Shown: positions 10,502-57,115 of the stretch, one piece after another
Position numbering within the stretch: position 1 is the stretch's first letter
Layout of the letters: each line of letters starts with the position of its first letter
DNA from: Saururus chinensis
Lineage: Eukaryota > Streptophyta > Magnoliopsida > Piperales > Saururaceae
Direction of reading: 5' to 3'
NCBI GenBank assembly: GCA_035235625.1
Contig: CP141144.1
Coordinates: 25,975,014-26,039,013 of the forward strand
DNA length: 64,000 nucleotides
Notes under the pieces: generated by a model
Database searches by the model: none
Told to the model about the DNA's origin: nothing
What the model saw: the letters and a program-made list of their open reading frames with translations, nothing else
Translations under genes and position numbers: made by a program

Positions 10502-11949
10502 CTGCAAATCAACAGAATTGATTCAGAGGGTCTCACCTTTAGGTCTTGGTCATATTTTCATGTTTAGTAGGGCTCTCAAAACTTTGCACCCAGTTTAATA
10601 TTGAGAGAACTGACTCAAGATTGTGGGCTAGGTTCTCTCTCAGGTAGGATCAACCATTTCATATAAAAAATTTAAGAACCGGCCCAAGTTGATTGGAATT
10701 TTTAATTAATTTATAAAATTATATCTAACCCAAGTAAAACGTAATCCTTGGCTCTTGCTATAAACTACGTTTCAAATTTAAAGATTATTTATTAATAATT
10801 TGGTTATTGTTATTATCCTTACATTCTAGTTGTATTTTTATTGTTTGCTTATATTAAGTTATTTATTTTGTTAGAGGGTTATTATATATGAATTTGTGTG
10901 TTAAAAAATTATAATTTTTTTAAAAGTAATAAAATTATGTTTTTTAGATATTAAAAACAATTATTTTTATGTAAATTGTCTCTTAAAAATTATACAAGGA
11001 AGAAAAAAATTAATTTAAAATAAAATTGTTGTTTGATAAATTGTCAAAAACGTCTCTAAAAGTTATCAAAACATCGTTAAAAGTTCTGTAAAAACATTGC
11101 TAGTGTCGACATGCGCCTTGTAATTTTTGCGAGGGTTTTAAACCTTTGTGAAAACTATTAACTAATATTTAAAATACTACTTATAAAAAGGGTTTTAAAT
11201 TTTCTCAAAAACATCAAACTTTCAATGGGGATTTTAAACCCCCGCTACAATCTCCCCAAAAACTTTTTACAATAGGGCTTTTAGAAAAGAAGTAACTTTT
11301 AGAAGAGAAGTAAATACCCCCACTAAAAGTTTAAGTGGGGTTTTTAAACTTTTGCGGAGGTTTGAAACCCCTGTTATAAATCTAAATTTTGTAGTACCGA
11401 TTTCCACTGCCCACTTATAATAAGAGATTTCGTTTTACTCATTATATATAAGCGCATCAAGACCACTGTCTCGTTGAGGCATTTGTTTGTCTGTGGTTGT
11501 CTTTTATCCAAAAAAACAATATTAGTATGGTTGTGGCAACCCAATAGGTAAAGAGTCTTAGGCATGATATTTTTCACAAAATAAAATTTGTTGATACGTG
11601 GGCCTGCTAAACTGTGTATGGAAAATTATTAGGTACACAATGCGGACCCAATAATTGTTTCTGTTGCGGGGCTGTTGGTGAGTGGAAACCCACATGTCTA
11701 AGTAATAAGGGGAGAGTTTTTAAGCTCTTAAGATAATAAGTTATGCATAAAAGCTACGATTACGATTGACAGTACACATATTAATACATATTAATATACA
11801 TTTAGGTGTACGTGATAAAAATTTAGGCTGGGCTCATTGTCAATTATAAACTTTGAAAAACTCTAATGCAGATAAAAGACCGGAGGTTTTTTAATTTTTA
11901 TTTCAAAAATAAACTCTGTTGAGTGTTGACAATTGGGGCGAGGGCTTAC
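10502..11949 (-). other. Intron 4 of GDSL copy A
   Basis: AT-rich intron with donor CG|GTAAGCC at 11949 and acceptor TTGCAG at 10502-10504. It is homologous to the intron 42965-44445 of the paralogue. No gene lies inside. Confidence 0.8.
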
Positions 11950-12143
11950 CGAACTCGTGGGGAGACTCGTAGATTCGCATGGCCGCCTGGTAAAAATCAG
12001 CATAGACGATGTTGACATGAGGGTAATGGCCACGCAGCCGGTCCACCATCTCCACCAACTGACGGTTGTGGAACCGGCTGAGCTCGTTGAGCTGGGCTAG
12101 GCACCCGGTTTGTGGGTCGTAGTCCTCTTTTCTCTCGCCCGGC

Positions 12144-12152
12144 ATGCCAGCC
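12144..12152 (+). repeat. Left 9-bp target-site duplication of the MULE
   Basis: ATGCCAGCC immediately before the element, identical to 31752-31760. Nine bases is the usual Mutator-superfamily duplication length. The sequence belongs to exon 4 of the GDSL gene. Confidence 0.96.
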
Positions 12153-12172
12153 CGCTTCGGATCGGCTGTGAT

Positions 12173-12200
12173 GCACTCCCACCGGGGTGGGTGGGAGTGC
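12173..12200. repeat. Subterminal hairpin, left TIR
   Basis: A perfect 11-bp inverted repeat, GCACTCCCACC and GGTGGGAGTGC, around a 6-base loop, 20 bp from the element end. The mirror copy is at 31704-31731. It could be a transposase-binding or end-recognition structure (inference). Confidence 0.85.
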
Positions 12201-12333
12201 CCAATCAGGTGAAACCACGTCATCAGGTGGCAGCAGGAGACGGGTTACTCGGTGACCCAGGTGAATGGTTTTCGTGAACACAAGACCGGGTGAAGATATG
12301 TATTAGAGCCGAGCCAGGCCAGTGGAGTGGTCT

Positions 12334-12519
12334 TCAAGGAACCCAGAACTCCCACCCATCCCAGCGACGATCACCGCTGCGCTCTGCAACTCCCGCATCC
12401 CGCTGCTCCCGCTCCCACCTGGTGACCAAGGAACCCAGAACTCCCACCCATCCCAGCGACGATCACCGCTGCGCTCTGCAACTCCCGCATCCCGCTACTC
12501 CCGCTCCCACCTGGTGACC
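12334..12519 (+). repeat. GC-rich ~92-bp tandem duplication in the left TIR only
   Basis: The segment starting AAGGAACCCAGAACTCCCAC at 12336 recurs at 12428. The right TIR has one copy (about 31475-31575). The duplication therefore arose after the two arms were last made identical. Confidence 0.8.
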
Positions 12520-13199
12520 AGAGCGCACTGATCAACGCCGGAGAAGAGTGGAGTACTCTTCAAGGAACCCAGAACTCCCGCTCCCACCCACCCCAGCGAT
12601 CCTTCGAGCGCTCTGCAACTCACCCATCCCGGTGACCAGAGAAGCGGTGATCGACGCCGAAGAAGAGTGGTCAGGTAGCAACATTCTCAGAGGCAGCCGG
12701 CGCATAAAAATCGAAATAGGAGGTGCAGTCTGTTGGCGCTCGCTCCTGCAAATCGGTCTGATTCCCGTTCGACAGTCGGAAAAGGATATCGTTGAGGTAC
12801 AACAAACGAACTTGAGATGCAGATGCGCTTATGTATTTTTTATTTTGTCTCTATCCGTCATTCCAGGGGAAAAAAAGGAACTTTGATTATTTTTCTATTC
12901 CATTTTCTTTCACGGACAACTTCTGCATTGTGTTTACTGCGCGCCCAAGTGACTTTATGTTCCATTTTCTTTCACATATAATTTCTGGGTTTTGACCACA
13001 TTGTGTTTACTGCAAGCTTCCGTCACTACTCCATCCCAGATTCTTTAAAGAATAGAAAACTGGATTTTTTGCTTTTTACTACATTTCCACCGACCTGCGT
13101 TTCGTTTGTTCCGCATTTTTTGATGGGCTTTCTTTCAGCTTACCACGCTTCTATATGTCGGAGAGAATAACCTGCATATGCTCTGTGGTTATTTTTATT

Positions 13200-13725
13200 T
13201 TTGAATCTGAAGTCCTAGATCGACGAAGTGAGGCCTTTTCGTCTCCTGCAAAATCAAAATTATGTTGTCCATAGCCTCTTCTCTGTTTTGCTTTTTCCAG
13301 GAAAAATTGTATCTTTTCCACTTTGGAATTTTTTGTTGCCTGTCTACTGATGAAACTGCATATGCTTTGTGTTTATTTTTATTTTTTAATCTGAAGTCCT
13401 AGATCGACAAAGTGAGGCCTTTTCGTATCTTGCAAATCAAAATTATGTTGTCCAGAGCCTCATCTCTGTTTTGCTTTTTCCAGGAAAAATTGTATCTTTT
13501 CCACTTTGGAATTTTTTGTTGCCTGTCTACTGATGAAACTGCATATGCTTTGTGTTTTTTTTATTTTTTAATCTGAAGTCCTAGATCGACAAAGTGAGGC
13601 CTTTTCGTATCTTGCAAATCAAAATTATGTTGTCCAGAGCCTCATCTCTATTTTGCTTTTTCCAGGAAAAATTGTATCTTTTCCACTTTGGAATTTTTTG
13701 TTGCCTATTTACTATGATTGTGAAC
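13200..13725 (+). repeat. ~182-bp tandem repeat, three units, in the TIR
   Basis: Units marked by ATCTGAAGTCCTAGATCGAC begin at about 13205, 13389 and 13571, spaced 182-184 bp. The right TIR holds the same three-unit array (about 30270-30800). Units are AT-rich and non-coding. Confidence 0.85.
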
Positions 13726-13879
13726 ACCGAATGGTTTCATTTCTCATGTTCACGAAACCTGCCATGCATAAAAGGATTTCAGAGTGTCCCCTTTGTCTTC
13801 TCTTTATATCAACTAAATGCTTGCCGATGATTTTGATGCCTTTAAATGTTCGATTATTTTGATGTCTTCAATTCATATA

Positions 13880-14895
13880 AGCCTTGCAGCAATATTGCTG
13901 GAGGGTTGGAGCAATATTGCTGGAGGGTTGGAGCAATATTGCTCCAACCTTGAGCAATATTGCATCAGCATTGGAGCAATATTGCTCCAACTTGGAGCAA
14001 TATTGCATCAACCTTGGAGCAATATTCTTCCAACTTGGAGCAATATTGCATCAACCTTGTAGCAATATTGCTCCAACCTTGGAGCAATATTGTTCCAACT
14101 TGGAGCAATATTACATCAACATTGGAGCAATATTGCTCTAACATTGGAGCAATATTGCTCCAACCTTGGACAATATAGCATCAACATTGGGGCAATATTG
14201 CTCCAACATTGGGGCAATATAGCATCAACATTGGGGCAATATTGCTCCAACATTGAGGCAATATTGCTCCAACCTGAAACTGTTCATTGATTTTGATGCC
14301 TTTAAATGTTTACCGATGATTTTGATGCCTTTAAATGTTTACCGATGATTTTGATGCCTTTAATGTTCGATTATTTTGATGCCTTCAATTTATATAAGCC
14401 TTGCAGCAATATTGTTGTAGGGTTGGAGCAATATTGATTCAACTTGGAGCAATATTGCATGAACCTTGGAGCAATATTGCTCCAACCTTGGAGCAATATT
14501 GTTCCAACTTGGAGCAATATTGCATCAACATTGGAGCAATATTGCTCCAACCTGAAATGTTCTATGATTTTGATGCCTTTAATTTATATATGTCTTGGAG
14601 CAAAATTGCTATAGGGTTGGAGCAATATTACATCAACATTGGAGCAATATTGCTCCAACCTTGGAGCAATATTGCTACACCGTCAGAGCAATATTGCTCC
14701 AACATGAAATGTATTATTACTACACCGTCGGAGTAATATTGCTCCAACCTGATAGGTTCGATGATTTTGATGCCTTTAATTTATTTAAGTCTTGGAGCAA
14801 TATTGCTACACCGTAGGAGCAATATTACTACACCTTAGGATCAATATTGCTCCAACCTTGCAACAATATTGATGCAAGGATTGAGCAATATTGCT
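13880..14895 (+). repeat. Palindromic 22-bp minisatellite, left array
   Basis: Dozens of 22-bp units around the perfect palindrome TTGGAGCAATATTGCTCCAA, alternating with variants in which one half reads GCATCAAC. The array is broken by short spacers containing GATTTTGATGCCTTTAA. Because 22 is not a multiple of three, all frames read periodic Gln/Tyr/Cys/Ser/Asn-rich peptides; these are not genes. Confidence 0.92.
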
Positions 14896-15017
14896 ACAAT
14901 TGTAAATTATAAATGCTAATAATTCTTAACAACGTTATAACTTTTGTAATGTGCTTTTTGATGTTTCAGGAACATTGTCTTCACTATAGTAGGGCTTCCT
15001 TTCATTGAATATCTATC

Positions 15018-18000
15018 ATGGCAACTAAATCAAGTAGGTTTTTTTTAATCCCTACGTTTAAAATGTTTATGGATGTTGTTGATGTACTAATATTAATGCT
15101 TATGCATTAGGATTATTGCTCTTGTTATAGCAATATTTTAAATGTTAATCCTATTATCAATAATTGAATTATATGCGACATTTTAAAGACATTATTGCTA
15201 CAACATTTCTGCATTATTGGTAATTTTATAGCACACTAGCTAAAAATGTTGTAGCATTATTTCAGCTATACTCATACCATCTTGAATATGATGCCAGTGT
15301 ATATTTTAAATATTGATATGTTATTTACGGGGTTATATTCAACACTTTTATTATATGTCTAGGTACCTTCTTACTAATACTTAGATATGTATTGATGCAG
15401 AAGTTCTTGAATCAAAGAAGAGGGGCTCAAACCTTGGAGGAGGATCAGGAAGAAATAGGCGAGAGTCATTGAAAGTCCCTTGTTTCCCCTCGGGACTAGC
15501 AAAGTCAGTGAGCATATTGTCTACCTTCCCAGAGGTGAAGACTCTTGTTAGCCAAACCCCCTTCATCCAATTGTTAGACGCAAGAAACATCGTTTGTCAA
15601 GCGTCACTTTTTGAAGTAATTTTGGGTTATTGGACTGAGGCCCAACCTGGGGTCACATTCAAAGGATGTAGAGTGGACTTCACTGTGGAGGATGTGGCCC
15701 TCATTACTGGCCTGAAGAAGGGGGGCAATCGGGTGGTCTTCGCCCAAGAAAGGGAGGAGAGGGGTGCTTATTGTAAGCGTCGTTTTGGGAAGAAGCAGGT
15801 TACAAGATCTGAAATTGAGAAGACCATGGATGTTTTAACTGCCACGACCGACCCTACATCGGTGGAGGATTGTGCAAGAACGATCATCTTGCACATTTTC
15901 TCATGCCTCCTATTTCCTCAGACCCACACTGTGGTCAAGAACGCGTTAATTGACCTGGTGGAAGACATGGACAGCCTCCATCAATATGACTGGCCTCAAG
16001 CTATTTATGAATTTTTAGTAGTCTCAGCCTCAACCCTCCATAGGAAGATTATGTCGAAGGAGGCAGGCAAGTCTGAGGGCTATGGATCATTGATTGGAGC
16101 AGCATTTGTCCTACAGGTATTTTATACTTGCTACATAATTGTATTTACATGATTATATAGGAGTTACAAAATGCTAATTTTTATCTTTTATATGTTATAG
16201 GTTTGGGTGTTTGAGCATTTTAAGATGTTCATATCCCCTGTGCCGCATAAGCTGCCCCGATTTGCGAAGTGGCCAAATTGTGGCATGCTAAAGGGGGAAA
16301 AAGAGGCTAAGCACCATAGGTCGGTTGGCAAATATGCACAAATGTTTAAATTTCTGAGACCACAAGAGGTAATTGTGACTATTTTTTATATTGAAATGTT
16401 TGAGTTTTTAAAATTTGTTCAACTTTTTAGTTTATTGAACTTTGCATGTTAACTAATTGTGCATATGTTGACCACAGGTTCTATCTGTGTTGGTTCCTGT
16501 TGCGAATGAGGCAAATCTCATTGAAGGGGCAGGAAAGGCCTTAAAAAAAAGGAAGGTAGGAATGGAAGGTGGGGCGCTGGTGAAGGCGAGTGGGGGAGGA
16601 ATGTTGGTCCTGAAGTCGGCGCTAGATAATATGGCCTCTGCACTTGGAGTTGTGCATACTGCCATGCATATATTGGAGGAGGAGGGCTACTCTACTGACC
16701 ATCTACATGGTGTCATGGACACCATTTCAGAAAATTTTTTGACATTTAAGAACATGGCCAATCATTTGGTTAAGAGGCCATCAAAGAGGATGAGGCATAC
16801 CTCCCTCGCAAAGGCGGACGAGGATGAAGGTGGCAAAGCTGACAAGGAAGATATTGGAGATAATAATGATGATAATGAAGATGAGGGTGAGGAGGAGGGA
16901 GGGGAAGAGGAGGGTGAGGAGGAGGAGGGAGGGGAAGAGGGGAAGAGGTGGAGGAAGAGGGGGGAGAGGAGGTGGGAGAGGATGGGGGAGAGGAGGAAGA
17001 GGGAGGAGAGGAGGTGGGAAAGGATGGGGGAGAGGAGGAAGAGGGGGAGAGGAGGTGGGAAAGGATGGGGGAGAGGAGGAAGAGGGGGGAGAGGAGGTGG
17101 GAGAGGATGGGGGAGAGGCAGGAGAGGAGGGTAGAGTGGATGAGGGAGAGGGGGAGAGGAGGAAGAGGGGGAGAGGATGGGGGAGAGGCAGGAGAGGAGG
17201 GGAGAGTGGATGAGGGAGAGGGGAGAGAGGCGGATGAAGAGGAGGGGGCAGCGGAGCAAGGGGAGGATAAGAGAGAGGAGGGTCTAGATGGGGAGGAGAG
17301 TATGAATGTTGAGGAGGGAGATGGGGAGGGAGATAAAGAGGGTCTCACTTCGAAAAGACCTCTACGGATAAAATATAAAAGTAAGAAGTATGGGACCCCT
17401 TTTACTCAGGAGAGAAAGAGGAAGAGGAGGGAGAAGAAGGAAATGACTGTGGAGGAGGCTGCAACCATTTTAGTTTCTTGTGAAGCCTCAGCCAAGCAAG
17501 CATCCCGTACCTTCCCTCGCCGTCCAATGAAGATTAACTTATGCAGTCCTCTATCTAATTTGTGTATGCGAGATCAAGACACTATTCAAAAATTCATTAC
17601 AGATAGGAGCCATTCTGTGGTGGGTGTCGGTGTCGCAGACAATGACTTAGTGGATATGCTGAAGGCGGAGTACATCTCGTCTAATGTAAGACTACAATTT
17701 CTATCTCTTTAAATCTTAAGTATTCAATATTGATTTTATACTAAGTGTATGCTTCAATGTATGTAGGTAATAGATGCTTACATGTATATGCTACAACAAA
17801 GAGCATCTAGATCTACTGGAAATGCCTTCCCCAAATGCCACTTTGGGACCTTTGCGTTGTAATTTTATTTCACCAAGGTATGGTCCAAAGCCTAATATTT
17901 TTATGTATTGGGTTAAGTTTGGATATGGACTAAGTCAAATCCAATGGGAATTGCAATTGAAGGTTATGGCAGAGGACGCATTGGAGGACCTCGCAACCAC

Positions 18001-18600
18001 ATGTTTTGGAGCCGATAAAGAATGTCCTGATTTCATCTTTATACCAATGTGTGACAATGCACATTTTCACTTATTGGTCATAGATGTTGACAAGACTGAA
18101 GTGAAATGGTTTAATTCCATGCATGGGTATGGCCATAAGAAACGACATCCTAATGTGAAAAAATTGGTGAGTTAATGTATGATTCATTGAAACCAATTTT
18201 GTTTTTAAACAATTACTTTGAAACTAATTTGGCAAATATGTGAATAATAGATGGATAGCATTGGAGTATTTCTTGAGGAGCACCTTAAGGTACCTAATGC
18301 TAAAAAGTGGAAGATCGTTAGTAAGAAGGGACCATACCAATCAAACGGGGTTGATTGTGGGTTCTTCCTCATGCGTACTGTATATTGCATTAGTTCTGGT
18401 TTGCCAGTTGATTATACTCAGGTATAATGGGGTTAATAAGATATATGGGCCAATTGCATATATTTTTTTATTTCTTCTTTATTCCTTCAGTCAAAATGGG
18501 ATACTAACAAATTTATTCGTTTCAACATTTTTAGGAAGATATCTCTCAGCGTTTGAGACTTGGAATGGCTGCAAAGATCCTAAGAGGCTCTATTGATTGA
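15018..18600 (+). CDS. DUF1985/Ulp1-type cysteine protease gene of the MULE
   Basis: Seven exons by splice signals: 15018-15033, 15401-16116, 16201-16368, 16478-17685, 17767-18166, 18251-18421, 18535-18600. The N-terminal part (after residue ~35, FIQLLDARNIVCQASLFEVI onward) resembles the DUF1985 region found before Ulp1 domains in plant MULE proteins. A long Glu/Gly-rich linker follows, then the C48 (SUMO-protease-like) domain. Visible residues: His in AHFHLLVID, Asn where Asp is usual in WFNSMHG, and Gln and Cys in PYQSNGVDCGFF. Exon 4 is 1208 bp, out of step by one base, and the open frame changes within the purine-rich linker (16870-17240) and again near 17860. This copy is thus either degenerate or misassembled in low-complexity DNA. 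Its role in transposition is unknown; related genes travel on Arabidopsis and melon MULEs. The annotation is a model, not a proven transcript. Confidence 0.82.
16870..17240 (+). repeat. Purine-rich coding minisatellite in the Ulp1 linker
   Basis: Almost pure A/G strand made of ~40-bp units such as GAGGTGGGAGAGGATGGGGG. In one frame it reads acidic (Glu/Gly), in the others basic (Arg/Gly), and the acidic reading hops between frames along the tract, showing indels inside the repeat. Antisense frames here give Pro/Ser-rich ORFs that are shadows. Confidence 0.8.
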
Positions 18601-19290
18601 GTATGAGTCTTTATGGTGATGGTGAGAACCTTAAATGATATGTATTAATGTTTCCTAGATCCATAGGTATGTATATATGAAAGGGGTGAATCTAACATTT
18701 GCTTGGGCTTTACTTTGTATTAATGGTTGAAAGCTGATGAATTTGGTTTCCGTTGGTTTTTTTTTATTCTACTACTTACATTGGTGGTTAGATGAATGAA
18801 GCCAAAAGTTCCTGGTTGAGACTGTCATGGGGTCTTTTGTTTTTATCCGCCCAATATTTAACTCTCTTCTTCTTCATTATCTCCTTCTTCAATGTTTATC
18901 ACCCAATTATTTCCTTCTCCAAGAAAATAAAGATGAACAGAAGATTAGGTTAACTACTGTTTATAAGTTAAAATGTTCTTCTACAGGGATATGTGGAGCC
19001 AAAAAATATGAGGTGCTACTCATAGAAACTTAGATCTGAATATAATCCTCTGAGTTCTAGTCATAATGGGATTTTATACTTCTGAGAGCTGAAAGAAATA
19101 CCAGGCAATCACTTGTAGCCATGTCACTGGCCTATGAAGAAAAGGATCTCCATGACTTTTACAACTTTTTTCTTTATTTTTGTTCTCTGAGACATTCTTT
19201 ACTACTCAAAAATATGCTTCATCAATAACCATTTGTATTTATCATGTCTCCAATTGTCAACGCAGTACCAACACTATAATTTTATTCTTT
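18601..19290. other. Spacer after the Ulp1 gene
   Basis: AT-rich sequence with no recognised gene; short ORFs lack any family resemblance. It probably includes the 3' UTR of the protease gene and flanking intron sequence of the captured UFL1 piece. Confidence 0.4.
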
Positions 19291-19293
19291 CTA

Positions 19294-20455
19294 GGTGCAA
19301 GGAAGACTTGAGGGAGGACAGCTGTATACACCTGCATATGTTGCACGTATTAATGCTATGGTGCGTGGAGCTTCAAGGGGTATCATTGTTCCCACTAATT
19401 TGTCAACAGTTTGGAGCTCTCTACAACAATTATTAATTGAGACAGATGGATCGAGTGGTGTATCTGTTTAAGGTGTTTTCTTACAATCTTTATGTAATGG
19501 TCTAGTTAAGGAAGGCGAGATACTTGGATCACTTCGTGCTGGAGTTCAATGGACACCTGCTGTATGAAACATCTTATTAGCATTTGTTGCTCTTAATTAT
19601 GTTGTGGCTTTCAAAATCTCCAGTTTTCTGGCTTGATTTGCTTAAATTTACGTGAACTTTTATGATAAAAAGTTACGAGGATTAAGAATGTGAAAATGGG
19701 AGCAAATTAAACTGTTAGTAATTTGATGAAGGTTGTTGTGGGACATTTATTTTTAAATGATGTTGTCGGTTTTTGTGCTACAGGTTTTTGCCCATGCTCA
19801 AAGAGAAAGCATAGAATCTTTTTTCACTTAGGTAGGAGTACATACTAGCTTTCCAGCTTGAAACAGATTTTTATTTTTAAGAAAAATTAATGCATACATC
19901 ATCCTTGCTGCCTTTTCTAATATAATTCCCCTTGTGGATTACAGGATTGACTGCCTTTCAATTCTACCTGCAGTTTATGGGCCTCAGGATGCTCCAAAGG
20001 TTTTGTCTCAGGATGCAAATATATTATTTTCCCTTTCCTTTGGTCTCTTTTTATTTGTTTGTTTATTATGAGGTTATGTCATTCTCCCTTTCTTTAATGT
20101 GCAGGATGTGTTCGGTCTCCTAGACAAAGAAACAGAAACTCTTACTCATATAAGGGCTTCTCATGACACTGTTCTTTCTTTTATGTGAAATAAAAAGAAA
20201 AATTAGAAGCCCACCCTTTTAATCTAAGGTAGTCTTTTGTATGGCATCTTAGTTTGGTCTTTACCTTCTAATGGCATGACAATTTGTGAATGAGGATTTT
20301 TATTCTAGTTTATTTCTTTTATGAGAAATAAAAGCCCAAGATTTATATATTTTTATAACATCTTTTTCATATCTCCTTCCAGGCCTTTTTGGATATTCAA
20401 CTTTATGAGAAAGCCCTCGATTTATTTGAAGATGATCCATCAACCTCAGTATGTT
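19294..20455 (+). pseudogene. Captured fragment of UFL1 (E3 UFM1-protein ligase)
   Basis: Exon-like blocks in order on the plus strand. About 19295-19563 reads GRLEGGQLYTPAYVARINAM, then LSTVWSSLQQLL and LVKEGEILGSLRAGVQWTPA. About 19783-19830 reads VFAHAQRESIESFFT. About 19945-20020 reads WIDCLSILPAVYGPQDAPKV. About 20103-20155 reads DVFGLLDKETETL. About 20383-20452 reads ALDLFEDDPSTS. These match successive parts of plant UFL1, the ligase attaching UFM1 at the endoplasmic reticulum. Introns are retained, so capture was from genomic DNA. The fragment has in-frame stops and lacks both ends of the gene. Confidence 0.82.
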
Positions 20456-20904
20456 TTTCATTGTTGATCTTATGCTATAGTGTTTGGTTAGCAAAATACT
20501 GGAAGTAACAAGTACAAATTTTCTTGCAAAAAAGACACAGCCTTGGTAAATGAATGACTTGTATTTCATTTCCATTTACAGTTAAATTTCTTGTTGCTTT
20601 TTGTTTCCCTATTATATGTCAATTTAATCTTTAACTCTCTCTCTTGTGCCCCTTTTTTTTGGCTTTCCTCATGCAAGATAAGCATGGGTTTTCCTTCCCC
20701 CCCCCCCTCACTTATTTCATATATTTGTAATCTTTTTCTTCTCTATCTAATCAAACAGCTTCGTCAAAGTCGTTGTAAACATGTATTCTATTTATGAAAT
20801 GGAGATCTCAGGCATAAAGAAATAGACAATAATAATATATTTACTTAGACTGCAACACAGAGTTTGTTGCTGCCTGTTCTATCTCGTTTCAGAGTATTTC
20901 ACAG

Positions 20905-21125
20905 TACAGGTAGTGGCTGCTGTTGGTTTCAAGGGCAGAAGGCTTGAAATTCCGAGTGATATTAACCCTCAAGTCGCTGCTGTGATTGAGTCCAGCTGGG
21001 CCAAGTAACTAGATAACCGAACATCCATTTTTCATTTTGGATTCCCTCTTGCAGCAATGAAACACATGATAAAGCCTTCAACACCTCAACCAGTTCTTGC
21101 TGAAGTATCACAGCTTACAGAAAAC
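20905..21125 (+). pseudogene. Captured fragment of a Raf-like (EDR1-type) MAPKKK
   Basis: Reads VVAAVGFKGRRLEIPSDINP followed by QVAAVIESSW, the C-terminal lobe signature of plant CTR1/EDR1-type kinases, then after a break KPSTPQPVLAEVSQLT, like the tail after the kinase domain. Only the last subdomain is present, so it cannot be an active kinase. Same orientation as the UFL1 piece, but from an unrelated gene. Confidence 0.65.
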
Positions 21126-22050
21126 GTGAAATTAGTTGCTGAGTGCTTGTTTCTCCGCATGGACGTTGTTTTTTGGTGAAGCAATTCTAGTGGGAGCGGC
21201 TTCTGTGCAGATTGTCACATGTACAGGACTAAATCTATTTTGTGGATGAGTTTCAATTCTTTTTTGCTTCTACCTAACTCTTACCTCTTATTACGTTGGT
21301 CAATCAGAGTGCCCTGCTATCTACACTCTCTTTGTTCTGTTGAAGGCGAGCTGCTATCTCACATTTCAGGCTGAGTTTCAAACGCCCAACTTCAAATCTT
21401 TTTTCTCCGCAATCACTAAATGTGTATGGTCAAATATCTTAATATGTTTTTTGTATGTATTATTATTCCTGTGTAATTAAATGTCTAACTCATAGAGAAA
21501 ATGAATTTTCTGCGAAAAGTGAGCAATTGCTTCACTAATGTCCAATATTTACATAATGCTTATTGTACAAGCAGGGATTCTTCAATAGATGGTCGTAAAT
21601 TTCAAGAATCGGTTTGCAGTGCAAAGAAGCCGATTGATTTCATTTGTAATATCTGGACAGTTAATGATGTAAGCGTGCTGGTTTTGCCTCTTTCATCCTT
21701 TCTTATAGGGATATTCGTGATAGAAACATGGCGGTGATCATTGTTCGGTTATTTCGTCTCAAAGAGAAGAACGCATGGATGATGTGTTTATGCATGGGCT
21801 CCACGCCATGGCCTGGACACATGGCTGTTATAGCCTTGCAGGACTTCCATGCTATATGCTAAGCCTTAAGGAACCAAACCTAGTCCTCTACGTTAGAAGA
21901 GTTTTCGTTTTCTACTTCTCATTGACAATGATCCCAACCTAAACTATGCATAGGAGATCGATAGTGTATATGTTAGGGCATGTTAGCGTCTGTATTACTT
22001 ATGCTAATGTGTGTTACTATGAGCGTCGTTAATTTTTGTTTTCTAAGGAC
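21126..22050. other. Unassigned MULE interior
   Basis: No gene recognised. A short open stretch at 21501-21737 has exon-like edges but no family resemblance that could be named. It may be a further captured piece. Confidence 0.35.
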
Positions 22051-22054
22051 ATTG

Positions 22055-22945
22055 CTACTGTTAGGGCAATATTGCTCCAACATTTGAGCAATATCGCTCC
22101 AACATTAAAGCAATATCGCTCCAAAATTGCTACAATATCGCTTCAATGTTGAGCAATATCGCTCCAAAATTGCTACAACATCGCTTCAATGTTGGAGCAA
22201 TATCGCTCCAACATTGGTGCAATATCGCTCCAATGTTGGGGCAATATCGCTCCAACATTGGAGCAATATCGCTCCAACATTAAAGCAATATTGCTCAAAT
22301 GTTGGAGCAATATCGCTCCAACATTGGTGCAATATCGCTCCAATGTTGGAGCAATATCGCTCCAACATTAAAGCAATATCGCTCAAATGTTGGAGCAATA
22401 TCGCTCCAAAATTGCTACACTATCGCTTCAATGTTGGAGCAATATCGCTCCAACATTGGTGCAATATCGCTCCAATGTTGGAGCGATATCGCTCCAACAT
22501 TGAACATTAGAGCAATATCGCTCCAACATTGGTGCAATATCGCTCCAATGTTGGAGCGATATTGCTCCAACATTGGCGCAATATCGCTCCAACATTGCTA
22601 CTGTTGTTGCAATATCACTCCAACATTGAACATTAGAACAATATTGCACCAATGTTGGAGCGATATTGCTACAACATTGCTACTGTTGGAGCAATATCGC
22701 GCCAATGTTGGAGTAATATCGCTCCAACATTGGTGCAATATCGCTCCAATGTTGGAGCGATATTGCTCCAACATTGGCGCAATATCGCTCCAACATTGCT
22801 ACTATTGTTGCAATATCACTCCAACATTGAACATTAGAGCAATATCGCTCCAATGTTGGAGCGATATTGCACCAATGTTGGAGCGATATTGCTCCAATGT
22901 TGGAGCGATATTGCTCCAATGTTGGTGCGATATTGCAGCAAGTTA
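22055..22945. repeat. Central palindromic minisatellite array
   Basis: About 40 units related to those in the TIRs but with GCAATATCGCTCCAA in place of GCAATATTGCTCCAA, so the palindrome is mismatched at one pair in most units. Units flip between forms (GGAGCGATATTGC and GCAATATCGCTCC) along the array. It separates the plus-strand half of the element from the minus-strand half. Confidence 0.9.
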
Positions 22946-23204
22946 AGAATAATATTGGATGAACATTGATGTTATTCACTATAAATTTGTTTCATATTAA
23001 GTGTTTCCAAGTGATAATTTCTCTTAATGGAAATTTTAAATTACATTTCAAAACTTGAGTTCGTTAATGCTTTGATGATCACGCTTAATATATTAATGCA
23101 TATGAAACTTACTAGGTTCCAACTACTCTTTTAGTATTTACTTCATATTCATTCCCTCTAACAAACATATCAAGTAATAAAATGATCAAAGATAAGAACG
23201 AACC

Positions 23205-23645
23205 AAACAAAAATTTCTCTACACTTTCGTTGGGCATGAACTCATAGATCAATAATTTTTATTCTTAGCGGATGCACCATCCCAAAAGCCTAACAAGGTT
23301 TTAGTGCTAGAGCTTTGCAATTAGTTCCACCTCATTCTTGAACCCTTCAAATCCTTGTCCTGAACTTTGAGAGAGCCTTTTCACAGCTATTTCTTGACCA
23401 TTTACTAATTTTTTCCTGCAAGATTGCCATTAAGCTCCTTTAATACCCAGATGCTTATGATTAATGCTCAGTGAGCTATTTTATAATATATCTATTTTTA
23501 TGATCCTCCAATTTCTTTTCTTATGTTTCTGTGGAGTTACGGTTCTTAAAATCCCTACAATGAAGTGGGGAAAAACCATATAAACATGTCCACATCCACC
23601 CTCTCCAAGCTTGTTGGCCGTAAAGAAATTCTCAGAGTATGCAAT
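23205..23645 (-). pseudogene. Captured receptor-like kinase fragment (DUF26/S-domain type)
   Basis: On the minus strand: FFTANKLGEGGCGHVY at about 23640-23590 (glycine-rich loop), then after an intron [20 protein letters not shown] and [11 protein letters not shown] (catalytic Lys region), then NLVRLLG and LLIYEFMPNESVEKF. This is the order of subdomains I-V of cysteine-rich or S-locus-type receptor kinases. Stops interrupt it. A plus-strand stretch at about 23760-23875 (CLKLYHRDIALDILNRA) resembles subdomain VIb and may be a rearranged part of the same capture. Confidence 0.65.
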
Positions 23646-24234
23646 ATTGTGATAAAGGAAAACAGAGTATGCAATATTGTGCACAAATAAGAAACACTGG
23701 CAGTCCCATCTTAGGCAAGCCCCACCCATCCAAACAATAAGAATGAGGTCAACACATTTTATTTGGGATCATGTAATATGTGCAGCTTTAGACATACTGC
23801 ATCAAGGAGGATGTTTGAAGCTTTATCATCGCGATATAGCACTTGACATTCTGAATCGTGCAATAATGTGAGTTGTCATGCAGCACCAATTGCAACTTTG
23901 ATTCTTATATCCCAAGAAAGTGGCTGAGCTCCTCCTGAAAAAGAGGTCCATTTTCTATGAGATGCAATATAACTAAAAAGAAATCAACAACTACTAAATA
24001 GATATCTTTACGTATTAACAGGAGTCACAACAAGTACACATTCATGTCCGTACACCACAAACAAAGGCACTTCATCATACATGAATTATATGAAATCTAC
24101 GTCTTTAAATGTTGAAAGTGTGGGATTATTTTTACTTATGACAAACGTTTCTCCCGAAGATGCACAAGGAGCATGATTTCATTTCCAAGTAACATAAAAC
24201 AAAGTAGGATAATTTATGTTTAAATAGGTGGTTC

Positions 24235-24795
24235 TCTAGACTACCTTTTGGCAAGTACTCATAGACCAGTAATCGGTAGTCACAAACACTGGCAATAACC
24301 AATGAGCTTAACTAGATTTGGATAGTGAAGTTGACTGAGGTACTGCACAACTGTCTGTCCACATCAGTTGTGAAACCAAATTAATAACACCAATAAAACT
24401 GAGAAACTTAATTAAACAAATTCTATAAGAGAAGAAAGGCTTACCAACCACTCTTTGTGGCCTTGAAAACCATATGCTTTAAGATTCTTCACAGCAAAAA
24501 CCGTTCCAGATCCAGGCTTTAAAGCAGTTATTGTTTGCTCATCGACCCATCCCTTGAAAACATAACCGAATCCTCATTCTCCACGGAGAGATTCTGTATG
24601 GAAGTTTCTAGTCGCATTTCTGAGCTGATTGAAAGGGAAGTTCTTCAAATATGGGGATGACGAGATTTCACACTCAGTTTGTGGTGTTGGAGCATTAGAA
24701 CTACCACTATTCTTGCTTTAAGATGGCAGAGTCAAACTTGATACACTTGTAGATAGTTTTCTCTTGCTGTTGGTTTTTGAAGCCTCAAATGCAAA
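24235..24795 (-). pseudogene. Captured PBS1-like (RLCK VII) kinase fragment
   Basis: Minus strand: FEASKTNSKRKLSTSVSSL, then LKNFPFNQLRNATRNFHTES, GFGYVFKGWVDEQTITALKP, GTVFAVKNLKAYGFQGHKEW, donor near 24445, then YLSQLHYPNLVKLIGYC. This tracks the N-terminus through kinase subdomain IV of APK1/PBL-type receptor-like cytoplasmic kinases, including the conserved intron position after GHKEW. It is truncated before the catalytic loop and contains stops. It is a separate source gene from the receptor kinase at 23205-23645. Confidence 0.78.
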
Positions 24796-24799
24796 GATA

Positions 24800-26515
24800 T
24801 AACGGAGTTACAAAAAGGATACAATGTTATACACATTTTGTCTCCTCATTCTTTAAAACTACAACCAGTATGAAGGAAGAATAAAACCTAAGAATTGAAG
24901 AATATTTTATAGCAAGTGTAAACAGAGCCTGCAAATGCTAACAGGAAAAAGGGAAAGAAGAACATTTTACAGCAAAGTACTATATTCCCCCTAAATAAAT
25001 AGTCCATGGATAACCAAATGCTATATGTCCTAGAAATCCGGAGATAGAAAATCATAACTTTAAGATTGATGTTGCCGAGTTAATATGGCCTTAATTATGC
25101 AACGTAAAAATCACCTCAAATCATATACTAACTTGGTTGCAAAATATAACAGAAAAAACTTTGTGGTCTACACCTCGAAATATCTCACTTCTAATCCCAC
25201 AGCCCAATTAAAAAGAGCAAATTAATATAACACGAAAATAAGCATATTTAAATCATTTGTCCCAACTAAATCTATACAACGAAAAACTTAAAAAAAACCA
25301 AGCACTTTCACTTTTCCAAAACATTAACTAAAACATACATACCCTTGTACCTAACTAAAAAATTAACTAAAACATAGAGCAAATCACAATGTTCCTAAGT
25401 TTAACAAGTGAATATCAGTATAAACATAAATGGTGGATCACACAAAAATACCTAACAAGGTTTCAAAAATCTCTGGAATATTGCACAGTTGATGGAATAA
25501 GAACTCCTTCAAAGTACCTATTTATCTTTCATATGCAGGTAAGCAATAGTTTAAAAAACTATATCATCATTGCAATATTGCTGCCTGTAACATAGTTGCC
25601 GAATCAGTTACATGTCTACCTATAAAGCTTGAAATATTATGGTACAATTCCAATAATCAAAGTTCCATCATCAAGTTTATGATTGCCAAACATTGATAGG
25701 AACTATATTATGAACAATCAACCCTACTGATAGTCATTGTTCTTATAGGTCTGACCACAAAGCGGTCATTCTTATTAGGATATACAAAAGCAAACGACAA
25801 TTTAGCATCTCTTCTTCTTGCTTGAGGATCAACCTCTTTGACCGAAAAAAGTTTATAAATGTGTACAGTTCATGTCCAGGAAAAAAGGTATTAAAAAAGA
25901 CTTCAAGAGGGGTAATATAAAATTTAATATACCATATATATCAATTCATGAATTGTAGCATCCTTCCATGTTTAAATTTATACTTCATCCTTGGGTTCCT
26001 TATCTCTCATTGCAAAATCTTCATTGGAATGGTGCCCACCAATCTACAATAAATATAAAGCATTTAGACAGAACAACCAAATGACAAAAGGAGAGCTACA
26101 TAATATGATTAGTGTGACACTCATCGAAGTTGGATTCATCACCATGTTTGAGAATATCTACAAAATAACCTGGCTTTCTTTTTTTTACAAACTCGATTCC
26201 AAAGACTAGATTCAATACAAATTGTTACATAGTAGCATCATGCAGAAAAATTACCTCATCTATTTTCCAAATCGTACAAATTGTCTTCAACCTTCCAAGA
26301 TTATATATAACATGACTTAACAAAATGGTACAAAATGTTATCAACCTTCTGTGATTGCATATAGCATCACTTAGCAAAATGGCAAAAAATATTTTCAACC
26401 TCCTGCATAAAAAACCACTTAAAATTGTAATCAGTAAAAGCTTATAAAAACTGATTTTATACTTCATGTTCAATTAATAACGAGTGATTAATATCTATTT
26501 TTACCCAAATTGGCT
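24800..26515. other. Unassigned AT-rich MULE interior
   Basis: No gene seen. Low-complexity AT-rich sequence downstream of the transposase gene; it may hold its 3' UTR and intron remains of captured genes. Confidence 0.4.
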
Positions 26516-29092
26516 TCAGCTAAACCTCAGTTGAGGTTTAGGAATCTGCAAGTGGCTTGATTCTATGGGAGGCATACTGACTTGCTGATGCACAATGTAA
26601 ATAAATTTACTAAATCATATTTTGCTAAAACTATCAAATAAAATGCTTTAGTTAAAGCAAATGATTGAACTTACCTCAAGTAAGTTGGAAAAACTTTTGA
26701 TACCTCTAGGAGTATCTTCGCAACAAAATAAATCCTATAATACATGCCAATAATTTAGAATTATATAGAATACAAAAAGACATGTGATAGTATCTATAAC
26801 ACCGTGAATAAATATAATTACTTGAGGTGGCTGAAACATTGGGATATGAGGTCGAAGCTGCAATTGAGGCAATTGAGTACATGAGGCGGGAGACTGCTGA
26901 GTACTTGGACTTGATTGCTTTTTTTTCTTGTGATGTCTCTCAAGGCAACCCCTCTTCCTCGCAGCTGCTTTACCACCACGAGTACGTTTCTCCCGTATTT
27001 TTATCCCTGATGCAGGTACCTCAATATTTTGGTCATTGATATCCTTTTCTGCGAGGGTCTCATGCATATTTGCAGCCCTATCTTGAAGCTCATTTTGATG
27101 AGTTTGCTTCAATTCCTCATCTATTACTTGGGACATAATTTTAGCTTGAATCATTGTTGCCTTATATTCCACTTCAGATTCAGCACCCCGTGCTGCTATG
27201 GCAATCAATATACGTGACAACTCCATGAAGCGTGTTCCCATAGCCTTATGTGGGTCAGTGTCAGTAGTTGTTGAAGTTGAATTCATTATGACCTGAACTT
27301 TTGCATCTCTTGACCACCGTCTAATTATGTATTGGGGAGGGAGCATCTTCACACATCTATTATCAAACACTTTCAATGAATGACTGCATAGTATTCCTGC
27401 AAATTCAAACTTCTTACAACTGCAAACAACTGTGTGATCTTGTAAATCAAATGTGACATTGTGTTGACCATGCTTTCCTACAACTTTGAACTCCATTGTT
27501 GTTCCTTTCTCTATATATTCATGAATTTCACAATCTAAGTGATCTTGATACTCACTTAAAAATATTTCAAAAGCAGCTGGGGTATAAATTTTTGCCGCTT
27601 GTGCTAACATTTTAGAGAACATGAGTAACCTAGGAGTTCTATCCAACATTTTAAAATCAGCTTGTAACTCTTGAAAACGTCGATCATCTACTAATCTATC
27701 AAAATGATGAAGAAACTCCATAGGATTTATTTTAGAATTTACATACCTCCTCAAAATACTGTTCATAGATTCACTGCACTGTGTGGACTTCATTCCCGCA
27801 CAAAAATGATGTCGACCATAAGCCATAGCCCATTTTTCCTTCTCACGAAACAACTGAAGCAACCACGGATGATCTTTAACTGTATATTTTTCAATCATCC
27901 TATTCCATCCCTCTAAGAACTCCTCCTCTGTTTCAAACTCAAATATGCATTGTTTTAGATCTCTTGCAAATGACTGAAACTTTTCAAAAACATGGCTGAG
28001 ATGTTCAGCTGCATTCTGATATATATGCCATATACATAAGCGATGATGGGTTTCTGGCATAACAACTCGAATAGCTTTAGCCATTGCTGCACATTGGTCT
28101 GTAATGATAGTAACCGGTTTCTTACCAGACATTGCAAAAAGATAAGTCTCAAGTAACCAAATAAAAGAATCAGCAGTCTCATCATATAACAAGGCAGCCC
28201 CAAATATGGTATTTTGGCGATGATGATTTACACTAGTGAACAATGCACATGGCCAATTTATGTTAGTAGTTCTATACGTGGTATCAAAGCTTATCACATC
28301 CCCAAAATTCTCATAGTCTACTATCATCCTTGCATTTGCCCAAAAGATATTAGTTATCAGACTATCTTCATCCAACTGCATTGAGTAGAAGAAAGATGGA
28401 TTATCCTTTTGTTTTCTTTTGAAGTATTCTAACAAAGCCGCTGCTTCTCCTTTTTCCATCACCTTTTGACGCTTAGTACGTAAATAATTTTTCAGATCCA
28501 CTGCAAGAAACCCTACATTTTGTTGACCACCAGCTTGGCTTGCTTGCAAAGCTATAGAATCTTTAGGTGGAATGCCTACACTTGCCGCTGAATCAGCCAA
28601 CACAGATTGAGACATACTCATGTGTCTATGTGAATTCAAAAATGGAACCTTTGTTGGGGTCACAACCATGTGATTATGACTTGGCTCAAATTGTACAATT
28701 TTATACATGTCATCTACAAGCTTGATAACCATCATAGCTAAACAGCCCGTTCTTGTTTCTGGACGAGGATTCTTCACCACTCTATTTCTTTTATCTTCAA
28801 CTCTTTTGCCTTCTTTTGAACAACAAAATCTTCGCATTCTAATTATGCCATCTTTTTTCCATTTTCATCCTCTTCGAATGCTAAATCCAATTGTTGCACT
28901 ATAATCATTGTAGAATTTGTAAGCCATCTCCTCTGTTGCAAACTCCATTCCAATATTTGGTACTCTTTCTTCTACTTCATGAAAATCTAATTTCCGACAA
29001 GCAGAGTTTACTTGGCTCCCTATTTGAATGTCATTTTGTTCATCACCTTCATTATGCCCATCACATCGAACACTTGACCCCTCACTTGCCAT
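26516..29092 (-). CDS. FAR1/FHY3-type MULE transposase, one in-frame stop
   Basis: Three coding exons: 26822-29092, 26675-26734 and 26516-26584, all phase 0, 800 codons including the final stop. Start chosen at ATG 29092 (MASEGSSVRCDGHNEG); an upstream in-frame ATG at 29110 lies before a possible splice acceptor. Domains: FAR1 DNA-binding region (residues ~49-145, MEFATEEMAYKFYNDY and RFCCSKEG), MULE transposase core with DDE candidates Asp270 (VISFDTTYR), Asp332 (TIITDQC) and Glu441 (STQCSESMN), and a SWIM zinc finger (CSCKKFEFAGILCSH, ~557-571). The spliced C-terminus ends QIPKPQLRFS. Codon 76 (28865-28867) is TGA inside the FAR1 domain, where a sense codon is expected; the rest is open for over 700 codons, so the nonsense change is recent or a sequencing error. 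The right TIR probably drives it. Confidence 0.9.
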
Positions 29093-29199
29093 TGCCCTAC
29101 ACAAGTCCATAAAAATATTATGAAGAAAAGAAGGGAATATATTCAAAATTTTGAAACTAAGACATTTTATTAGTGTGTAACAAAATACTATATGGCTAT

Positions 29200-30115
29200 A
29201 TTGTAGCAATATTGCTGCAATGTTAGAGCAATATTGCTGCAAAGTTGGAGTAATATTGCGCCAACAGTGTAGCAATATTGCTCCAAGGTTGGAGCAATAT
29301 TACCCCAATGTTGATGCTATATTACTTCAAGGTTGGAACAATATTGCTCCAACAGTGGAGCAATATTGCTCTGATGGTATAGCAATATTGCTCCAAGGTT
29401 GGAGCAATATTGCTCCAATGTTGATGTAATATTGCTCCAACCCTATAGCAATTTTGCTCCAAGACATATATAAATTAAAGGCATCAAAATCATAGAACAT
29501 TTCAGGTTGGAGCAATATTGCTCCAATGTTGGAGCAATATTGCTCCAATGTTGATGCAATATTGCTCCAAGTTGGAACAATATTGCTCCAAGGTTGCTCC
29601 AAGGTTGGAGCAATATTGCTCCAAGGTTCATGCAATATTGCTCCAAGTTGAATCAATATTGCTCCAACCCTACAACAATATTGCTGCAAGGCTTATATAA
29701 ATTGAAGGCATCAAAATAATCGAACATTAAAGGCATCAAAATCATCGGTAAACATTTAAAGGCATCAAAATCAATGAACAGTTTCAGGTTGGAGCAATAT
29801 TGCCCCAATGTTGGAGCAATATTGCCCCAATGTTGATGCTATATTGTCCAAGGTTGGAGCAATATTGCTCCAATGTTAGAGCAATATTGCTCCAATGTTG
29901 ATGTAATATTGCTCCAAGTTGGAACAATATTGCTCCAAGGTTGGAGCAATATTGCTACAAGGTTGATGCAATATTGCTCCAAGTTGGAAGAATATTGCTC
30001 CAAGGTTGATGCAATATTGCTCCAAGTTGGAGCAATATTGCTCCAATGCTGATGCAATATTGCTCAAGGTTGGAGCAATATTGCTCCAACCCTCCAGCAA
30101 TATTGCTGCAAGGCT
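29200..30115 (-). repeat. Palindromic 22-bp minisatellite, right array
   Basis: Mirror of the left array with the same TTGGAGCAATATTGCTCCAA core and GATGCC spacers. It begins ~110 bp upstream of the transposase start codon, so the array sits directly in front of the gene. Confidence 0.92.
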
Positions 30116-31751
30116 TATATGAATTGAAGGCATCAAAATAATCGAACATTTAAAGGCATCAAAATCATCGGCAAGCATTTAATTGATATAAAGAGAAGAC
30201 AAAGGGGACACTCTGAAATCCTTTTATGCATGGCAGGTTTCGTGAACATGAGAAATGAAACCATTCGGTGTTCACAATCATTAGTAAACAGGCAACAAAA
30301 AATTCCAAAGTGGAAAAGATACAATTTTTCCTGAAAAAAGCAAAACAGAGATGAGGCTCTGGACAACATAATTTTGATTTGCAAGATACGAAAAGGCCTC
30401 ACTTTGTCGATCTAGGACTTCAGATTAAAAAATAAAAAAAACACAAAGCATATGCAGTTTCATCAGTAGATAGGCAACAAAAAATTCCAAAGTGGAAAAG
30501 ATACAATTTTTCCTGGAAAAAGCAAAACAGAGATGAGGCTTTGGACAACATAATTTTGATTTGCAAGATACGAAAAGGCCTCATTTTGTCGATCTAGGAC
30601 TTCAGATTAAAAAATAAAAATAAACACAAAGCATATGCAGTTTCATCAGTAGACAGGCAACAAAAAATTCCAAAGTGGAAAAGATACAATTTTTCCTGGA
30701 AAAAGCAAAACAGAGAAGAGGCTATGGACAACATAATTTTGATTTTGCAGGAGACGAAAAGGCCTCACTTCGTCGATCTAGGACTTCAGATTCAAAAATA
30801 AAAATAATCACAGAGCATATGCAGGTTATACTCTCCGACATATAGAAGCGTGGTAAGCTGAAAGAAAGCCCATCGAAAAATGCGGAACAAACGAAACGCA
30901 GGTCGGTGGAAATGTGGTAAAAAGCAAAAAATTCAGTTTTCTATTCTTTAAAGAATCTGGGATGGAGTAGTGACGGAAGCTTGCAGTAAACACAATGTGG
31001 TCAAAACCCAGAAATTATATGTGAAAGAAAATGGAACATAAAGTCACTTGGGCGCGCAGTAAACACAATGCAGAAGTTGTCCGTGAAAGAAAATGGAATA
31101 GAAAAATAATCAAAGTTCCTTTTTTTCCCCTGGAATGACGGATAGAGACAAAATAAAAAATACATAAGCGCATCTGCATCTCAAGTTCATTTGTTGTACC
31201 TCAACGATATCCTTTTCCGACTGTCGGACGGGAATCAGACTGATTTGCAGGAGCGAGCGCCAACAGACTGCACCTCCTATTTCGATTTTTATGCGCCGGC
31301 TGCCTCTGAGAATGTTGCTGCCTGACCACTCTTCTTCGGCGTCGATCACCGCTTCTCTGGTCACCGGGATGGGTGAGTTGCAGAGCGCTCGAAGGATCGC
31401 TGGGGTGGGTGGGAGCGGGAGTTCTGGGTTCCTTGAAGAGTACTCCACTCTTCTCCGGCGTTGATCGGTGCGCTCTGGTCACCAGGTGGGAGCGGGAGCA
31501 GCGGGATGCAGGAGTTGCAGAGCGTAGCGGTGATCGTCGCTGGGATGGGTGGGAGTTCTGGGTTCCTTGAAGACCACTCCACTGGCCTGGCCCGGCTCTA
31601 ATACATATCTTCGCCCGGTCTTGTGTTCACGAAAACCATTCACCCGGGTCACCGAGTAACCCGTCTCCTGCTGCCACCTGATGACGTGGTTTCACCTGAT
31701 TGGGCACTCCCACCCACCCCGGTGGGAGTGCATCACAGCCGATCCGAAGCG
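29350..31751 (-). repeat. Right terminal inverted repeat of the MULE
   Basis: Reverse complement of the left arm, slightly shorter because it has a single copy of the ~92-bp GC-rich unit and fewer short units near the minisatellite. The transposase start codon lies ~260 bp inside its inner limit, with a possible splice acceptor just before it, so this arm probably supplies the transposase promoter. Confidence 0.92.
31704..31731. repeat. Subterminal hairpin, right TIR
   Basis: Mirror copy of the 11-bp stem and 6-base loop at 12173-12200, again 20 bp from the element end. Confidence 0.85.
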
Positions 31752-31760
31752 ATGCCAGCC
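31752..31760 (+). repeat. Right 9-bp target-site duplication of the MULE
   Basis: ATGCCAGCC immediately after the element, a perfect copy of 12144-12152. Confidence 0.96.
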
Positions 31761-32810
31761 AGGGAACAGGGCAAGCAGCCGAGCCCCACCATGGACGGCA
31801 CAAGGAAGGAAGTGGCCCCGTCTTCAATCAGAGTCTGAAACACAGGCAGGCATACAAATGAGCCTTTCAATTTAGTCTATATGCAGACGAACTGAGTCAA
31901 TCAAACTCACTTTCATGGCCGACTCAGTGGTTGCAATGACAAGCGGCACAATGCCCTCCTGTACTTCTGGGATGCTCCAGTTGTGATTGAATGCATAGCC
32001 ATAGTCGTTGCCTCCTATTTCTCCCACAATGAAAAGGGTGTTCCTCAATATGAACCCACAATCTGTGGAGATTAGATTCAGACAAAATTATTTTGTGCAA
32101 ACACAGCCATGAACAAGAAATTGGTGGACGGAAACAAACGAGGTAGACTGGCTAACTGAAAGATGATTGGCCGAGTCCACTCGGAAGAAATTGGACAAAT
32201 TATCGATATAATTTACCTGATGTTCCAGAGCAAATTGAAGGCAGAAGCTTCTGGAACCAGTCGAGCTGAACACTCAAGCTGTCCCGCGTCTCCATGGGAA
32301 TCCCTGTCTTGGCAAAGAAGTCTGCATCCAGGGCTGTCGCTCCTGCCACTGCGAAATTGGCCCCATACTTGAAATTCTTCTCGTTTGAGTGAGGCAGGTA
32401 AGGAGGCACAAACGGGATCTCCAGAGCTTCAGCTGTCAGTACAACAAGATCAAACAAGACAGTAAGCTGCACTTTAGTGTCTACAGAAACATAACTATTG
32501 ATCAAGAGACCTGGTACCTAGGAAGTCGATGATCAAGCGGCCATCAGAGTATCTGCCGGTGGGGTGATGGAAGAAGGTTTCCCCATAGGGCGGTCGGCCT
32601 GAAGAGCTGTTGGCTTCAGAGTAGAGCAAGTTTCCTGTGTCCGTGAGGGAGTCACCGAAGCTGAATATGGAGTTGTAGCAGTTTGATAGGGACTCAATTG
32701 GGGACAATAGGAAAGCTGCAATGAAGATGAGAATAAGGTGGAAGGGAGGGAAAGGGGAGGCTTCCATCGCTAAAAGCTAGCACCAGACCCAGCGACTGGA
32801 CTGATTGAGG

Positions 32811-32818
32811 TATTTATG
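32811..32818 (-). promoter_or_regulatory. Candidate TATA box of GDSL copy A
   Basis: CATAAATA on the minus strand about 45 bp before the start codon. The paralogue has a similar ATAAAT at about 45690-45696. Confidence 0.4.
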
Positions 32819-57015: not shown

Positions 57016-57115
57016 TTTGGGCTCGAGCAGCGCAAAGTAGCAAGAGTCGGGGGGACAGAGACGAGGGCCGCGATCTGTAGAGAGGGGTTTTTATCTGCGA
57101 AGGAGCTTCCGAAGT

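Follow-up and report, generated by a model that had tools for sequence, protein, structure and literature searches.

The 64,000-nucleotide stretch of Saururus chinensis DNA analysed here (contig CP141144.1; hereafter the window) contains, at positions 12153–31751, a 19,599-bp block with long palindrome-filled ends, which raises the question of what kind of mobile element it is and what such ends may do for it. The block is very probably a recently inserted Mutator-like element (MULE) with long terminal inverted repeats (TIRs) and a transposase of the FAR1-domain, Jittery-like type, a reading based on exact ends, a target site duplication (TSD), the TIRs, an intact-looking DDE core, FAR1 and SWIM domains, two convergent genes and captured fragments. 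The boundaries were set from the TIR and TSD ends and by comparison with an empty site. At least the first 28 bases of both ends are identical in inverse copy, and the element is flanked by a perfect 9-bp TSD, ATGCCAGCC, at 12144–12152 and 31752–31760. Its structure therefore matches the definition of a MULE, a TSD of 8–10 bp with TIRs. When the flanks are joined with a single TSD, a 121-amino-acid open frame with a GDSL-lipase reading runs across the join on the minus strand. The 3′ part of this interrupted exon occupies 11930–12152 (−) and the 5′ part extends rightwards from 31761. To the left of the join, Pfam Lipase_GDSL gives a weak match (E 0.0071, 16.9 bits, cut-off 23.6), and the first exon of the gene, at 32500–32776, scores above the cut-off (25.3 bits). 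A tandem GDSL-lipase paralogue in the same window (~44347–45936, −) lacks the element at the matching position. The paralogue is identical to the empty-site join at 282 of 300 bases with no gaps, compared with 9 gap bases when both TSD copies are retained, and an assembly join is therefore very unlikely; together with the perfect TSD, these data reduce the probability of such a join, or of chance, almost to nothing. The insertion is thus real and its ends are base-exact, as the preliminary description had held, and the exon that was hit is otherwise still open. The interrupted lipase gene (11843–12152 plus 31761–33071) differs from the paralogue at 97 of 1587 bases, with 8 indels. The tandem pair (44347–45936 and 11843–33071, both −) is ~92% identical over 1.6 kb.

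A blastn comparison of the element with the remaining 44.4 kb of the window (word size 11, filtered) gave no match at E 1e-3, and the left TIR gave only weak simple-sequence matches, the best of 38 bases (E 2e-4). The 28-bp element end had no exact match in a collection of viral contigs, in which the transposase ORF had no confirmed relative; these are viral, not plant, sequences.

The left TIR (12153–14701, +, ~2.55 kb) comprises an outer part of 92-bp and 182-bp tandem repeats and an inner part of 22-bp palindromic arrays. The right TIR (29356–31751, −, ~2.40 kb) is its inverse without one 92-bp unit. The earlier estimate of TIRs longer than 2.4 kb is supported by the alignment that the preliminary description had called for, in which 2337 of 2363 aligned columns match and 26 carry substitutions (98.9% identity, the last of these substitutions being the boundary column of the alignment); a repeat search agrees. 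There are seven internal indels (92, 1, 22, 44, 29, 11 and 22 bp), and the alignment finishes with an overhang of 5 bases. Those of 22, 44, 11 and 22 bp lie inside the 22-bp arrays, and the 29-bp indel falls in a 29-bp repeat between arrays. Transitions account for 24 of the 26 differences, the pattern that would be expected of methylated DNA and so of silenced TIRs. The columns up to 13865 contain 23 differences in 1621, compared with none in the next 717 (13866–14677, mostly 22-bp arrays), a contrast with a Fisher p of 0.0003 for boundaries picked after the data were seen and of 0.09 for a plainer split that includes the inner boundary columns. As units of 22 and 44 bp have also been gained or lost between the two TIR arrays, there is modest evidence that the arrays may have been homogenised recently.

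The transposase gene lies at 26738–29092 (−; 3′ end approximate). Its product matches the Pfam models FAR1 (75.3 bits), MULE (PF10551; 96.3 bits) and SWIM (20.8 bits), all above their curated cut-offs with the stop described below read as X, and also PF00872 (41.2 bits); PF10551 and PF00872 identify it as a MULE-type DDE transposase. The catalytic triad was assigned by eye to residues 270, 332 and 441, giving spacings of 62 and 109. From printed positions the corresponding values are 62/110 in the Jittery transposase and 62/99 in the TED transposase (PMC9569675), so the spacing is Jittery-like. An N-terminal FAR1 domain with a C-terminal SWIM domain is also the layout of the Jittery-like group, which in the published group table has FAR1 N-terminally and SWIM or CCHC C-terminally; in the Hop subgroup that includes plants, FAR1 is present in half of the members (PMC6446971). 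An in-frame TGA at 28865–28867 (−), inside the FAR1 domain, counts against the preferred reading. As the FAR1 model aligns straight over this codon, it is likelier to be a nonsense change than to lie in an intron, and because the transposase is interrupted by the stop this copy is probably non-autonomous. In the survey of Dupeyron 2019, the Jittery dicot/monocot subgroup has TIRs of 39–292 bp or none and a TSD that is not indicated or 8 bp, TIRs of 14–500 bp are stated for the MULEs surveyed, and the table extends to 640 (PMC6446971). The TIR of ~2.5 kb and the 9-bp TSD reported here lie outside the subgroup range, which is descriptive rather than a strict criterion; the TSD of Jittery itself is 9 bp (PMC9569675).

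The second gene, ORF2, is located beside the left TIR and is convergent with the transposase gene. Its N-terminal part (15399–17134, +; 5′ start approximate) has likely GT-AG introns at 16117–16200 and 16369–16477, both in phase 0, and encodes a plant mobile domain (PMD) that passes its cut-off (47.0 bits, cut-off 34.9). Among published MULEs, PMD is recorded for MuDR groups, frequently in antisense orientation (Dupeyron 2019, PMC6446971). The DUF1985 match in the same region (32.2 bits) is below its cut-off of 35.1, which counts against the preferred reading. An in-gene minisatellite (16885–17248, +) encodes acidic sequence rich in E, G and R. The open frame changes within this repeat, where 132 GT-AG pairs could link both frames; the change would reflect either an intron or a frameshift, and a single continuous ORF2 protein is putative. 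The C-terminal part (17200–18600, +) is predicted by a five-exon splice model, with exons to 17685 and at 17767–17858, 17935–18166, 18251–18421 and 18535–18600. On the spliced model the Ulp1 protease domain (Peptidase_C48) scores 50.0 bits against a cut-off of 20.7, compared with 19.3 bits, just under the cut-off, for the lone exon-containing ORF. The preliminary description of a DUF1985/Ulp1 protease agrees with the Ulp1 match; the N-terminal part is PMD/DUF1985-like. In alignments, His, Gln and Cys of the Ulp1 site are retained, but Asn takes the place of the Asp present in SENP1 and in an Ulp1-like SUMO protease of solved structure. We take the His, Asp, Gln and Cys positions of Ulp1 and SENP1 to be the catalytic residues, and the Asn also counts against the preferred reading. 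This substitution and the TGA in the transposase are two caveats that the preliminary description had missed. A CDC45 match in acidic low-complexity sequence was rejected, as it is below its Pfam cut-off.

The preliminary description had proposed that the combination of parts may mark a new MULE family, a view that is overstated. Ulp1 occurs in some Jittery-like MULE families of grapevine (Benjak et al. 2008) and, according to van Leeuwen 2007 as cited there, in Jittery-like MULEs and TIR-MULEs of melon (PMC2528002). The same source reports the domain in TIR and non-TIR MULEs alike, describes captured host pieces as common in grapevine transposons, and includes two multi-copy families, Jitvine-1 and Jitvine-2, of 11.9 and 14.4 kb (PMC2528002). 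The grapevine and melon elements thus share a Jittery-like transposase and Ulp1 with the S. chinensis element, and Jitvine-1 and Jitvine-2 its large size, although the text does not name the Ulp1-bearing families (PMC2528002). Since Ulp1 in Jittery-like MULEs is already published, the combination does not define a new family. The differences lie in the ends: the longest MULE TIR tabled for grapevine is 710 bp, Jitvine-1 and Jitvine-2 being listed without a TIR length, compared with ~2.5 kb here, and palindromic arrays, which the S. chinensis element has, are not described for the Jittery-like MULEs in the grapevine account (PMC2528002). The mix of parts is mostly known, and what is unusual is the kilobase-scale, palindrome-filled TIR, in which the inner part consists of 22-bp palindromic arrays near both genes, with a third array in mid-element.

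The array unit, TTGGAGCAATATTGCTCCAA, is ~22 bp and self-complementary. Searching the whole window with up to 3 mismatches identified 88 copies, all inside the element: 28 in the left arrays (13882–14899), which extend ~200 bp past the TIR, 31 in the central array (22066–22933) and 29 in the right arrays (29201–30113), which extend ~155 bp past the TIR and whose inner edge is ~110 bp upstream of the transposase ATG. This proximity of arrays to both genes was counted in favour of the preferred reading. The 10-base core, with one mismatch, has 102 matches, of which 5 are in the element away from the arrays and 1 is outside it; for the 16-base core, one mismatch being allowed, there are 43 matches, whereas none of 100 shuffles contained any. 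The only strict core in the TIR arrays is GCAATATTGC (22 copies in each), and the central array has mostly a CpG-bearing variant (GCAATATCGC, 21; GCGATATTGC, 7; GCAATATTGC, 2; GCGATATCGC, 1). CpG is present in 29 of the 31 unit cores of the central array and in none of the TIR-array cores. For the left and right arrays the observed/expected CpG ratio is 0.24 and 0.09, respectively; the central array has a value of 0.93 and the outer left TIR one of 0.82. Single-strand folding z-scores, each from 20 simple shuffles, are −22.5 for the left array, −26.6 for the centre and 0.0 for a stretch of outer TIR. The 20-bp palindrome had no exact match in viral contigs and prokaryote genomes, neither of which is a plant collection, and a DZR_2 match in the central array, below its Pfam cut-off, was rejected.

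The arrays and the protease gene resemble the VANC/Kaonashi arrangement, which has so far been associated with MULEs whose TIRs are degenerate or lacking. In addition to DUF1985, VANC proteins have variable regions that are associated with tandem repeats, and the short motifs that they bind form tandem repeats in noncoding DNA (PMC5735166), and VANC genes that bear Ulp1 are termed Kaonashi in a review (PMC13317346). By analogy, the PMD/DUF1985–Ulp1 protein could bind the 22-bp palindromes, both those of the TIRs and those of the central array, and remove methylation from the whole element, giving a VANC/Kaonashi-like anti-silencing system in a FAR1-clade, long-TIR MULE with target palindromes in the TIRs beside both promoters. 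Such a system is conceivable but on balance doubtful. It is consistent with a DUF1985-like ORF with a minisatellite lying beside 88 palindromes that form three noncoding clusters and occur nowhere else in the window, with the excess of the 16-base core over shuffled sequence, and with the central unit variant, which parallels the C- and T-type motifs of VANDAL21 (PMC5735166). The location of Ulp1 (+) on the strand opposite to the transposase (−) is likewise a Kaonashi/VANC (KIU) trait (PMC13317346, PMC5735166, PMC10398659). By contrast, the DUF1985 score is under its cut-off, and the known motifs are all but absent: raw counts, made without a shuffle control, of YAGTATTAY, AGTTGTCC and AGTTGTAC are 0, 2 and 0 in the element, compared with 0, 0 and 2 in the remainder of the window. 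Furthermore, VANDALs have degenerate TIRs, which their authors suggest as a possible escape from siRNA silencing (PMC10398659), the opposite of what is found here. As VANDAL/KI elements are non-TIR or degenerate-TIR and encode a mudrA-type transposase, the S. chinensis element, with kilobase-long TIRs that are 98.9% identical and a FAR1-type transposase, was not filed among them.

It is just as possible that the palindrome arrays in the TIRs are repeats to which the transposase binds, or that they arose incidentally as the foldback structure grew. That the arrays are only subterminal transposase-binding repeats and foldback structure, the Ulp1 gene being a long-kept passenger, is a plausible account whose probability we place somewhat short of even. 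The arrays pair strongly with themselves (left z −22.5, centre z −26.6), which is compatible with this account, and there are precedents: the TIRs of the Aedes aegypti MULEs Muta1 and Muta5 contain short tandem repeats in subterminal position, and Muta1 counts as a foldback element, although these TIRs measure 145 and 151 bp and the description of the two elements mentions no second gene or Ulp1 (PMC5225508). It does not readily explain why a third array lies in mid-element, far from the ends, or why the splice-consistent Ulp1 exons are open as far as the stop at 18600, since a passenger gene has no need of an open frame. Foldback elements with a MULE transposase offer a further comparison. 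FARE elements have a 9-bp TSD and TIRs of ~0.55 kb, and FARE2, at up to 16.7 kb, encodes three proteins. On a working definition of long modular foldback TIRs plus a 9-bp TSD, the S. chinensis element would be FARE-type, albeit with TIRs of ~2.5 kb. In the published accounts FARE belongs to the foldback elements and carries a MULE transposase (PMC3169594), and FARE1 of Arabidopsis has ‘long palindromic repeats' at both ends (PMC4486113).

Between the PMD-Ulp1 and transposase genes lie four captured pieces of host genes, all with stops or broken frames. Six-frame Pfam scans covered 18400–26862, and elsewhere chosen ORFs and sequences were scanned (10 + 8). A fragment of UFL1, an E3 UFM1 ligase (19295–20449, +), was recognised from Pfam and by eye and contains stops; the piece at 19295–19564 has a Pfam E value of 7.6e-15, that at 19787–20163 was read by eye and that at 20383–20449 is a below-cut-off Pfam match only. 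A search of the UFL1 piece against solved structures gave no match at E 1. A decayed kinase fragment (23205–23633, −; Pfam kinase E 1.3e-9) is putatively cysteine-rich-RLK-like, as judged from motifs read by eye, Pfam saying kinase only. It is followed by a decayed fragment of a PBL2-like cytoplasmic kinase (23798–24299, −; E 1.1e-12, 24222–24299 by eye) and a decayed SAP18 fragment in two coding pieces (25723–26040, −; E 3.2e-10). Intron-like DNA separates the coding pieces, so genomic DNA was probably captured. Every fragment has the same orientation as whichever element gene is nearer to it, but four cases do not suffice for an interpretation. Host fragments between TIRs are shared with Pack-MULEs, but Pack-MULEs are nonautonomous derivatives that lack a transposase gene, whereas here the gene is present, interrupted by the stop. 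The earlier claim of one recent MULE insertion that unites foldback-like TIRs, a transposase of FAR1 type, Ulp1 and captured gene pieces is correct. The label ‘very young' holds for the insertion but not for the contents, given the decay of the captured pieces and the stop in the transposase.

As the central array resembles the TIR arrays and captured pieces lie on both sides of it, the block might instead be a composite of at least two nested elements, with the remnant of another MULE in the middle. This is improbable: the ends are accounted for by a single pair of TSDs and a single pair of TIRs, and the outer TIR (12153–13870) has no copy in 14950–29150, where the best blastn match is 15 bases (E 0.07). 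A MULE with tandem multiple TIRs (PMC3310237) was also considered and rejected, since the same search of 14950–29150 found no second outer-TIR copy.

For the preferred reading of a single, recently inserted long-TIR MULE, the following history can be proposed. Host gene pieces would have been picked up as genomic DNA before the present insertion. A family transposase would then have bound the TIR ends, and the element would have been cut and pasted into the GDSL-lipase exon through 9-bp staggered cuts. Because its own transposase has an in-frame stop, the mover was probably a sibling copy, or the TGA arose after insertion. By analogy, each TIR is probably the promoter of the adjacent gene at its inner edge, the left serving the Ulp1 gene and the right the transposase. 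The most likely role of the PMD-Ulp1 protein, judged from VANC/Kaonashi proteins, would be that of a helper that counters host silencing, and the palindrome-rich long ends may help the element to resist it.

The element is a base-exact, recent example of kilobase-long palindromic TIRs combined with a PMD-Ulp1 gene and a transposase of FAR1 type. Long TIRs are regarded as triggers of silencing by siRNAs. Protection of the element by the Ulp1 gene, through binding of the TIR palindromes, would mean that anti-silencing arose in, or was passed to, MULEs that have retained such TIRs. A VANC-like system of this kind would break the published link of such systems with TIR loss, and the contrast between CpG-free units in the TIRs and CpG-bearing units in the centre might then have been shaped by methylation.

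Neither tRNA genes nor Rfam matches were found across the whole length of the window. A 164-bp unit is tandemly duplicated at 3268–3596, the copies being 97% alike. Pentatricopeptide-repeat ORFs (33759–34758, +) adjoin the interrupted lipase gene, and a malate dehydrogenase exon (Ldh_1_N, 118.8 bits) lies at 56434–57090 (−), with a leader that by eye appears to be of mitochondrial type.
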